A DNA stretch of 64,000 nt from Bacteroidales bacterium (GTDB taxonomy: Bacteria; Bacteroidota; Bacteroidia; Bacteroidales; UBA932): positions 1 through 64,000 of the forward strand of contig JAFRSW010000014.1 of NCBI GenBank assembly GCA_017427385.1, in the 5' to 3' direction. How positions within the stretch are numbered: position 1 is the stretch's first letter; each line of letters begins with the position of its first letter. The notes beneath the pieces are model-generated. The model searched no databases. It saw only the letters and a list, made by a program, of their open reading frames with translations, and was not told where the DNA came from. Below, one piece after another: positions 10,051-36,873 of this stretch. Both the position numbers and the translations under genes were made by a program.

Positions 10051-10134
10051 GCGGGAGTGGCGAAATGGTAGACGCGCTAGTTTCAGGAGCTAGTGTCTGG
10101 TGAAGACGTGTCAGTTCGACTCTGATCTCCCGCA
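10051..10134 (+). tRNA. tRNA-Leu (anticodon CAG)
   Basis: Acceptor stem GCGGGAG pairs with CTCCCGC. The D arm region is GCGAAATGGTAGACGC. The anticodon arm CTAGT/GCTAG holds the seven-base loop TTCAGGA with anticodon CAG. A long class II variable arm and the T loop TTCGACT follow. The discriminator base is A at 10134 and CCA is not encoded. CAG reads CUG leucine codons. The gene has its own promoter and terminator. Confidence 0.95.
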
Positions 10135-34387: not shown

Positions 34388-35065
34388 ATGAAACGATACC
34401 TATATATATTGCTGCTTGCCTTGCTTGCTTCGTCCTGCATGAAGGCTGATATGGATAATTGGATAGATGGGGCTCCTATCGATGATAATGCGACGGGAGA
34501 GTATATGGCCATACTCACAGTCAAGAAAACGCCTACGGACAGCGTCTATTTCCAGCTGAACGATTCTACCACCATCTATGCCGCCAACTATCAGAACAAC
34601 TACTCCCGTATGGAAAGGGTGTTCTGCGACATAACGGTTACCAACAAGCGCGTCGGACGTTTCAACTATACAGGCAATATCAACTGGCTGGAACCCCTGG
34701 ATGAAGGCAAGGTGACGGCCGATGCATCAGTGAAGGGATCTGATGGCCTGGACATTCTGAACGACTGGATGACCGGCGTGGAAGACGGCTACCTGACCGT
34801 TCATTATTCAACGTGGTGGGGTAAAAGCCCGGTACAGCATGATTTCTATCTGGTTACCGGCGCCAATCCTGCCGATCCCTATGAGGTGGAACTGCGCCAG
34901 AATGCAAACGGCGACAAAAAGGACGATCAGGGAGATTCCCTGATCTGTTTCGACATAAATTCCCTTCCGGATACGGGAGGACAGTATAAAACGCTTACTC
35001 TAAAATGGACTACGAGTGGAGGTTCGGCTTCTGAAAAGGAATTCAAGTTCAAGACCAGAAAGTGA
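34388..35065 (+). CDS. NigD-like lipoprotein
   Basis: 225 residues from the ATG at 34388, chosen because it begins the lipoprotein signal MKRYLYILLLALLASSC. The body (YMAILTVKKTPTDSVYFQLNDSTTIYAAN, split across an N-terminal OB-like part and a C-terminal beta-sandwich) resembles the NigD-like family, first named from a Prevotella bacteriocin locus but widespread and of unknown function. The 3' end overlaps the sigma gene start at 35016 by 50 bases, implying translational coupling. It diverges from the vWA gene. Confidence 0.75.
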   Translation: MKRYLYILLLALLASSCMKADMDNWIDGAPIDDNATGEYMAILTVKKTPTDSVYFQLNDSTTIYAANYQNNYSRMERVFCDITVTNKRVGRFNYTGNINWLEPLDEGKVTADASVKGSDGLDILNDWMTGVEDGYLTVHYSTWWGKSPVQHDFYLVTGANPADPYEVELRQNANGDKKDDQGDSLICFDINSLPDTGGQYKTLTLKWTTSGGSASEKEFKFKTRK

Positions 35066-35606
35066 ACTGACTGAGCTTGAATTGTTGAGGCTGGTCCGCA
35101 GCGGAGATTCATCCGGAATGCGCAAACTATATGAGCGCTATGTCGGGTATCTCACTGCGGTATGCTCCCGCTATGTCGTGGACCGTGCGGCGGTGAAGGA
35201 TATCCTTCAGGAGGCCTTCATCAAGATATTCAAGGGCCTGGATACCTTCGACTACCGCGGAGAGGGGAGCGTGAAGGCCTGGGCGACCAGGATAGTGGTG
35301 AACGATTCCCTGAAGGCCCTCAAGGCATCTTCCCGCCTGAGTTTCGTGGAAGACCTTCCGGATGCGCCCGAAGAAGATGAGCCCGGCCTGCCGCAAGTGC
35401 CGGCGGCCGTGGTCCAGGAGATGATAAAGGCGCTGCCGGATGGCTACAGGACCGTTTTCAATCTCTTCGTATTCGAAAAGAAATCGCACAGGGAGATAGC
35501 ATCCCTGCTTGGAATAAAGGAAGATTCGTCGGCATCGCAGTTCTTCCGCGCAAGGGCGATGCTGGCAAAGAACATAAAAGCATATTTGAAGGAACATGAG
35601 CAATAA
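35016..35606 (+). CDS. ECF-type sigma factor
   Basis: 196-residue ECF sigma factor. Region 2 covers about residues 30-95 (MRKLYERYVGYLTAVCSRYV, then DILQEAFIKIFKGLDTFDYRGEGSVKAWATRIV). Region 4 is at about 135-190 (ALPDGYRTVFNLFVFEKKSHREIASLLGI). The only upstream candidate start is GTG at 35016, inside the end of the NigD-like gene; a later TTG is possible. It overlaps the next gene by 11 bases. It is not a FecI-type sigma with a FecR partner; the downstream protein with a cytoplasmic N terminus is the likely anti-sigma. Confidence 0.88.
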   Translation: MEVRLLKRNSSSRPESELTELELLRLVRSGDSSGMRKLYERYVGYLTAVCSRYVVDRAAVKDILQEAFIKIFKGLDTFDYRGEGSVKAWATRIVVNDSLKALKASSRLSFVEDLPDAPEEDEPGLPQVPAAVVQEMIKALPDGYRTVFNLFVFEKKSHREIASLLGIKEDSSASQFFRARAMLAKNIKAYLKEHEQ

Positions 35607-36873
35607 GAACGATTGGACAGACCGCCTGCCGGAGATCCTCGAGGGCTATACGGAGGCGGAACCGGAAGGGCTGTGGGACGCAGTCCAGGCCGGCATTGAA
35701 CCAAAGAAGCGGCGTATTGCCGCTGCGTGGTGGTATTCGGGTGGAGCGCTTCTCGCCGCTGCCGCCATCGTTGCCGTGGTCCTTCTTTGGCCTGTCAGGC
35801 CTTTGACGGATGTCTCCCTCGTCCCGGGAGATGTGGTCGCGGATTTGCCGGAAACTGTCGTTGAAGAGGCTCCGGAAGACGGAGAGGTGCCTGCGTTGGC
35901 TATTGAAGGGCAGGACAGAGTCCCTTCTGGAGCCATAGCCTCCCGTGGCTGTAACGGGAGGGGCCCATCGGAGATGGGAGGGGTCTCGCAGAGACAGGCG
36001 GAAGAAGGGACTGCTGTCCTGCCCGCGAAAGACGACACCTCGACGGAATCTACCGATGCTACGACGGATGGCAATGTGCAAAATGAGCCTGATATGAACA
36101 TTGAGCCAGAAACGCACGTCGTGCCGTTGGAAAGGAAGCAGCCGATAATCAGGCGCAAGCCGACAACCAGGGTGCAGGCCGGATTTACCGCAACAGGGTA
36201 TTTTAGCCAGATCGCATCCAACTCGACTACGGGAGTCGGCGTTCCGGCAAATCCTGGTTCAAGATTGTCGGTCATGCCTATGACAAAGGCCTCCGGCACA
36301 CCTGGGGTCAATTATTCGGCGGGGCCTTCCATGCTGAGCAGAAACAAGGCCAGTACCACGGATGCCAGCCATTCCCAATCGGCAAAACTTGCCGTGACCC
36401 TGAAGGTTAATCTGGATTATCGTTGGGGAATAGAAACAGGAATCGTCTCCTCTACACTTAAATCGGAATTCAACACTACGGTCGGGAGCTCCAGTACATT
36501 CACCGATCGCACGATTACATACTTGGGCATTCCGTTGTTTGCCACTTACAATGTCTTTGAGTGGCATCGGCTAAGCATGTACTTGAGTGCGGGACCCATG
36601 TATGAATTCACAACCCGCACAAATCTGGAGAGCAGGTCTTATGTCGGTGGTTCGTTAACAGAGAGCAATTTCGACAACACTCTGTACGAAGACAGCAAAT
36701 GGTCGGTAAACGCAAGTGCAGGTCTGCAGCTTCGCGTATCCGACCATAGTGCCCTGTTCGTTCAGCCGGGAGTCTCGTATCATTTCAAGGATGATTCCGC
36801 CCTTGAAACTTTCTACACGGAGCATCCTGCTTCGTACAACGTCACATTCGGATATAGGGTAATCCTTTTCTAA
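35596..36873 (+). CDS. membrane-anchored putative anti-sigma / outer-membrane-type beta-barrel fusion
   Basis: 425 residues. A 40-residue charged N terminus (DWTDRLPEILEGYTEAEPEGLWDAV) resembles short cytoplasmic anti-sigma segments and is followed by a membrane helix at about 44-66. A linker of about 120 residues includes residues 105-143, which are encoded by an in-frame palindromic repeat. From about 190 the sequence has amphipathic strands and ends FGYRVILF like an outer membrane beta-barrel (PMP/porin-like). An inner membrane helix joined to a barrel is topologically odd but recurs next to ECF sigmas in Bacteroidota. It overlaps the sigma gene by 11 bases and converges with rpiB (four-base overlap). 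Confidence 0.7.
   Translation: MSNKNDWTDRLPEILEGYTEAEPEGLWDAVQAGIEPKKRRIAAAWWYSGGALLAAAAIVAVVLLWPVRPLTDVSLVPGDVVADLPETVVEEAPEDGEVPALAIEGQDRVPSGAIASRGCNGRGPSEMGGVSQRQAEEGTAVLPAKDDTSTESTDATTDGNVQNEPDMNIEPETHVVPLERKQPIIRRKPTTRVQAGFTATGYFSQIASNSTTGVGVPANPGSRLSVMPMTKASGTPGVNYSAGPSMLSRNKASTTDASHSQSAKLAVTLKVNLDYRWGIETGIVSSTLKSEFNTTVGSSSTFTDRTITYLGIPLFATYNVFEWHRLSMYLSAGPMYEFTTRTNLESRSYVGGSLTESNFDNTLYEDSKWSVNASAGLQLRVSDHSALFVQPGVSYHFKDDSALETFYTEHPASYNVTFGYRVILF
35908..36024. repeat. 117-bp cloverleaf-like palindromic element inserted in frame
   Basis: The ends form a long stem: 35908-35928 pairs with 36003-36024 over 21 base pairs, with a single bulged G at 36013. The interior holds three hairpins: CCTCCCGT/ACGGGAGG (35939-35961, loop 7), CCCATC/GATGGG (35964-35978, loop 3) and GTCTC/GAGAC (35983-35995, loop 3). 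The element is exactly 39 codons long and starts on a codon boundary, encoding residues 105-143 of the beta-barrel protein without a stop. No second copy was found by eye in this window. It resembles in concept the palindromic elements that insert in Rickettsia genes. Confidence 0.85.

Follow-up and report, generated by a model that had tools for sequence, protein, structure and literature searches.

The palindrome found inside a protein gene of the window (the whole 64,000-nucleotide stretch of Bacteroidales DNA analysed here) is probably one of many dispersed copies of a non-autonomous palindromic element, which lies in frame within protein genes, often in linkers or loops, and is translated as extra linker. 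We assign it to a new family, whose in-frame palindromes work like the Rickettsia palindromic elements (RPEs) and which is apparently separate from them, the RPEs being compared by description. We infer mobility from dispersal and from presence or absence at orthologous sites, and the mobiliser is one that we can only infer.

The element lies at 35908-36024 on the minus strand, a strand set by the orientation of the family model and opposite to the one that the host gene reads. In the folds, a 21-bp terminal stem (first arm 35908-35928; second arm 36003-36024, with a bulged G at 36013) encloses three hairpins on the minus strand, each also recovered by the model match: family hairpin 1 (GTC...GAC, 35983-35995), hairpin 2 (CCCATC-NNN-GATGGG, 35964-35978, recovered by the core search as well) and the position of hairpin 3 (35939-35961), where the window copy departs from the model sequence. 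The core CCCCTCCCATCNNCGATGGGNCCCTCC (35957-35983, minus strand) served as the pattern in searches of the window's own genome and of public contigs. Stem, bulge and hairpins had been proposed in a sequence-only reading, and the DNA and RNA folds reproduced them exactly, with an additional 3-bp inner helix in the fold of 35908-36024 that the reading did not contain. The reading had also held such structure to be very unlikely by chance. Indeed, the DNA fold (−40.0 against a shuffle mean of −20.46, z = −7.21) and the RNA fold (−76.6 against −47.64, z = −7.56) were equalled by none of 200 dinucleotide shuffles each. An inverted-repeat listing of 35800-36130 returned 0 pairs, although the folds and the model do detect the stem. 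A search of the window against Rfam, a collection of curated RNA families, gave no match to the element; its sole match was a tRNA gene at 10051-10134 (52.7 bits).

The host gene (35596-36873, plus strand) is an open frame of 425 amino acids, whose product has a membrane-like segment, by eye, in its N-terminal part, then a linker, and a C-terminal outer-membrane beta-barrel domain (PF13568, residues 236-390). Codon 105 starts at position 35908, and the 117 nt of the element amount to 39 codons, which bears out the earlier assignment of residues 105-143 to the element on codon boundaries. An upstream open reading frame (35016-35606, plus strand), sigma-factor-like by eye, overlaps the start of the host gene by 11 nt. 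When 30 loci of the host gene were compared with the model, in the kind of orthologue check that the sequence-only reading had proposed, a match inside the gene appeared only in the window's own locus and in that of genome G045, and one further locus (L097) had a match just downstream of the orthologue. The G045 copy, found via the host gene and not via the core pattern, occupies the same place, and its own stem folds without mismatch.

Copies elsewhere were sought by several routes. The first DNA search of the own genome gave two partial matches to the element, each inside a larger palindrome, and further copies came from searches with one partial match and with the shared core. Allowing up to 3 mismatches, the core occurred at 4 places in the own genome (reversed control: 0). 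The exact core was found in 39 public genome contig stretches (40 matches), all titled Bacteroidales or Bacteroidia, with 0 matches in viral contigs. A terminal stem scoring 15 or more under a simple ungapped rule accompanied 26 of the 40 core sites, and 3 of those below this score sit at an end of the sequence stretch examined. A covariance model (R1), built from 14 ungapped copies of other genomes with the window copy excluded, matched the window at exactly 35908-36024 (65 bits); matches to it span about 90-180 nt. With this model, the own genome (G000) has 11 copies at E ≤ 0.01, and at least 69 of the 81 genomes of the genus, the own one included, carry copies. Copy numbers in the genus scan are lower bounds from the best 45 candidates scored per genome; rescoring raised the counts of G019 (19 to 31), G028 (10 to 13), G000 (10 to 11), G045 (9 to 10), G051 (0 to 1) and G057 (10 to 11). 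Copies of three other genomes of the genus are identical to copies on contigs titled Bacteroidales (G057, L122 with L033; G054, L121 with L024; G019, L124 with L041), which points to this order for the own genome; the genus may be Cryptobacteroides. An order-wide scan at E ≤ 1e-6, weak in that the best 9 candidates per genome were scored and 7 of the 11 own copies were recovered, found the family in at least 5 of 393 genomes, the own one included, in 5 of 206 genera. The three loci outside the genus that we read (L283-L285) look, from their sequence, like true relatives. We found no published description of this family in the literature searched, outside which most subscription papers lie.

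Ten of the 11 own copies lie inside a long open frame and one is intergenic, in agreement with the earlier suggestion of an RPE-like element that enters genes in frame. According to Pfam, the genes are those of TruB, an HU-CCDC81 protein, a 2-oxoacid dehydrogenase E2, a biotin carrier-like protein, a helix-hairpin-helix protein, DNA polymerase I (PolA), MatE, a pterin-binding enzyme (by our reading dihydropteroate synthase-type, DHPS), an MtaB-like protein (UPF0004 and Radical_SAM) and the window gene itself. Pfam domains flank the element on both sides in TruB, E2, PolA and the MtaB-like protein; at the MatE copy, the opposite strand has a longer frame, which is spurious. Each insertion adds about 40 amino acids, and the open frames suggest that these residues are translated. 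A coding location is itself expected in a dense genome; the notable point is the intact frame each time. On average, 3.27 of the 6 frames of own copies are open, against 2.43 in shuffles (2 of 200 as high), a modest effect. Some sites are filled in many species. Of 30 loci each, 10 have the element in the mtaB linker and 8 (29 loci readable) at methyltransferase site 1, and the DHPS site is filled in several.

RPEs are likewise palindromes placed in frame in unrelated protein genes, with a size given as 105-146 bp in one review and about 150 bp in the other (PMC2229807, PMC10969869). As far as description allows comparison, the present family differs from them in its phylum, in its three-hairpin core and in arms that vary freely yet pair; the host is not Rickettsia, and all 39 contig stretches with the core are titled Bacteroidales or Bacteroidia. 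Porphyromonas gingivalis belongs to the same order as the element's host. Its BrickBuilt MITE is also a miniature inverted-repeat element but, unlike ours, is reported to be strictly intergenic (PMC10969869). Long perfect inverted repeats occur inside protein genes of Nematomorpha as well, there in mitochondria (PMC6649704). The family also works like intragenic REPs: for the GTAG/CGTC REP super-families, PMC3733652 and PMC6006769 report palindromes inside the DNA polymerase I and TruB genes, the same targets as here, and describe CGTC repeats in Bacteroidetes. In our family, hairpin 1 has CGTC at its foot in 13 of the 14 copies of the model alignment; that of the window copy has not. The sequence-only reading had proposed a mobile REP-like repeat. 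Its mobile part is supported by the dispersal and the presence/absence pattern, whereas by size the element is no REP, having 117 nt, a 21-bp outer stem and three hairpins against the 20-40 bp of REPs.

Orthologous genes without the element were found, as the earlier reading had thought possible. For DHPS, the element is present in G000, G045 and G121 and absent from G085 and G104; for MatE, it is present in G000 and G085 and absent from G121. In G085, the sequence at the empty DHPS site is AAACGG|CCGTTT, the foot of the filled stem; the G104 site has a small hairpin, and the empty MatE site of G121 is a near-palindrome. Such sites are few, and the genomes represent one per species. The empty sites read are near-palindromic, so that an insertion target that was already a palindrome cannot be distinguished from a stub left by loss. 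The size, the terminal inverted repeats and the dispersal would also fit a DDE-type MITE of the ordinary kind, in which the terminal inverted repeats are conserved and the target is duplicated. We consider it unlikely: conservation between copies does not extend to the terminal arms, and the cleanest empty site (DHPS, G000 against G085) shows no direct target duplication.

The way in which the sequence has changed bears on the level at which the pairing is kept. The family combines a shared three-hairpin core with a long outer stem. In the 14 ungapped copies, both partners vary at 25 of the 26 terminal pairs; pairing holds in 340 of the 364 terminal cells, and only 3 of these 340 are G-U. For the whole structure, 0 of 500 shuffles reached any of five measures. 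Between orthologous pairs, the terminal stem had 187 positions the same, 28 changed on both sides and still paired, 16 one-sided or mismatched and 7 gapped, whereas the hairpins had 198 of 202 the same, 0 double changes, 3 mismatched and 1 gapped. These totals cover 10 of 11 pairs, the pair G003/G149 at methyltransferase site 1 being left out for wrong orientation, and several of the pairs were also found by the core pattern. An earlier pooled count of all stems in 12 pairs gave 472 the same, 32 both changed, 5 G-U, 14 other and 5 gaps. Conservation looks highest in hairpin 2. Part of this is an effect of the search, in which the exact hairpin 2 sequence was the means of finding many copies, and copies recovered with the model do vary there (e.g., L127 and L135). 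In the own DHPS and mtaB copies (L178, L181), an extra inner hairpin (GGGG..CCCCGAAAA..TTTTTGGGG) is present, perhaps a nested repeat.

At the window site, all 20 hairpin pairs are unchanged between G000 and G045 as aligned; of the 23 stem pairs, 11 are unchanged, 6 changed on both sides, 1 is G-U, 4 are mismatched and 1 is gapped, the G045 terminal stem being diverged yet paired. Identity as aligned is 94/116 in the element and 62/118 and 77/117 in the flanks; neutral decay does not account for a window copy better conserved than the surrounding gene. Instead of a mobile repeat, selection might be keeping an RNA-level structure that serves mRNA stability, pausing or processing. Such a reading would be consistent with this identity, with hairpins that are almost unchanged between orthologues and with the extreme RNA folding energy. 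Still, it is quite an improbable explanation in view of three observations: the copies are read both ways in unrelated genes (5 of the 10 own genic copies each), they are present or absent at orthologous sites, and G-U pairs are nearly missing from the outer stem. The last we read as pointing to DNA-level copying rather than RNA selection.

Orientation also varies at single sites. The E2 elements of G000 and G045 stand in opposite orientation within some 40 bases of each other. At methyltransferase site 1, sequence reading placed the element reversed in G019 and G095 and forward in six; a short motif test called 2 of 2 reversed and 4 of 6 forward, with one false hit at L253, a locus without a copy at this site. 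Both independent insertion at tolerant linkers and in-place inversion fit these differences. An invertible cassette, in which a site-specific recombinase acts on the palindromic arms, flips the core and thereby varies linkers, would produce the opposite orientations in E2 and at methyltransferase site 1. We give this little credence, given that no fixed site is common to the arms and that independent insertion at a tolerant linker accounts for the same pattern. We also considered arms derived from inverted duplication of the target. Arms that differ from copy to copy would suit such an origin, but a weak arm consensus, seen by eye, is common to many copies, and the overlap with native sequence at DHPS and MatE is confined to the outer foot. 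That an ordinary linker pairs by chance is hardly credible, even though linkers tolerate extra sequence, in the face of 0 of 200 shuffles and a 65-bit match to a model made from other genomes.

For the dispersed in-frame element that we favour, the following course can be proposed. The element would spread as a folded single strand, probably by RAYT-like HUH (Y1) transposases acting in trans, and only copies that keep the reading frame would survive. Switching of the DNA polymerase template between the arms may re-make the stem, by which the arms would change together, and could flip the core; loss of an element would leave behind a short palindrome, the stem's foot. Template switching would thus explain both the paired drift of the arms and the core flips. 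In yeast, it homogenises the arms of inverted repeats and inverts spacers in coding DNA, according to PMC8604942. The most far-reaching version of this course is a tentative one, and we hold it to be rather doubtful as a whole: a single-stranded DNA cloverleaf, moved in trans by RAYT-like HUH transposases, would serve as a genus-wide re-writable linker, with template switching keeping the arms complementary, flipping the core and yielding new in-frame peptides in housekeeping genes.

The transposase part of this proposal draws on a correlation. Y1 domains (PF01797) occur in 61 of the 81 genomes at E ≤ 0.001 (56 of 81 above the family cut-off), and G000 has 3 matches, 2 of them above the cut-off. 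With copy numbers from the genus scan (best 45 candidates per genome, hence lower bounds), the mean is at least 1.9 in the 20 genomes without Y1 and at least 13.5 in the 61 with it. The 36 genomes that are at least 90% complete separate fully by these same lower-bound counts, with 0-3 in the 8 without Y1 against 4-34 in the 28 with Y1. Phylogenetic contrasts were taken on a single-gene tree (mtaB) of 76 genomes, 5 of the 81 being left out for want of a usable mtaB. They gave r = 0.38 (p = 7e-4) and, in the complete genomes, r = 0.73 (p = 4e-7, 35 contrasts); Y1 presence changed 11 times on the tree. The test is post hoc and without a control transposase family, and genome completeness also correlates weakly with copy number in the full set (r = 0.27). 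Exceptions exist: no copy was found in 4 of the 61 genomes with Y1, and 2 of the 20 without it have 9 and 14.

For four Y1 proteins from G000 and G045, the nearest model is NF047646, the REP-associated tyrosine transposase, at 27.6-35.2 bits against a cut-off of 80. RAYT-like genes are present here and track the copy number of the element; unlike in REP/RAYT systems, the element was matched in 0 of 24 Y1 loci (model R1, E ≤ 1), which speaks against the Y1 genes of these loci as its carriers. RAYT-like Y1 transposases would be a candidate mobiliser in trans. Nine of 20 Y1 loci do have inverted repeats beside or around them, of a sequence different from that of the element. At L290, L291 and L294, RAYT-like genes stand between pairs of their own inverted palindromic units of 74-82 nt, unlike the cloverleaf element, and the L291-type unit resembles a palindrome beside the intergenic element copy (L002, about 1397-1445). 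At L299 (G058), at least 5 units of 65-93 nt form inverted repeats on two sides of the Y1 locus.

The linkers of the genus seem to collect many repeats. A second, shorter in-frame repeat of the CATTCCGAGC...AGCGAAGGA type, with peptides such as VIPSKAK and VISSEVEKSL, occurs in the same linkers: beside the polA copy (L179, G000 C17), in the mtaB gene of G045 (L074) and in an outer-membrane protein gene of G051 (L091). It is reminiscent of the CGTC REPs described for Bacteroidetes; the window has 0 matches to CATTCCGAGC at up to 3 mismatches. Methyltransferase loops (L270, L272, L274 and L048) hold other in-frame repeat peptides (DQVQ, VWTRSK, ARDDRRE and SVDKPSESPTCPPKHPV).

In-frame palindromic elements have so far been described from Rickettsia and from some REP-rich genomes, and to our knowledge their mover has not been established. 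A family present in at least 69 of 81 genomes of one Bacteroidales genus, with copies in housekeeping genes, empty sites, differences in orientation and a strong link between copy number and Y1, makes the question of the mobiliser testable by comparison and by experiment, and it provides a natural system in which template switching could be studied as it acts on protein sequences.
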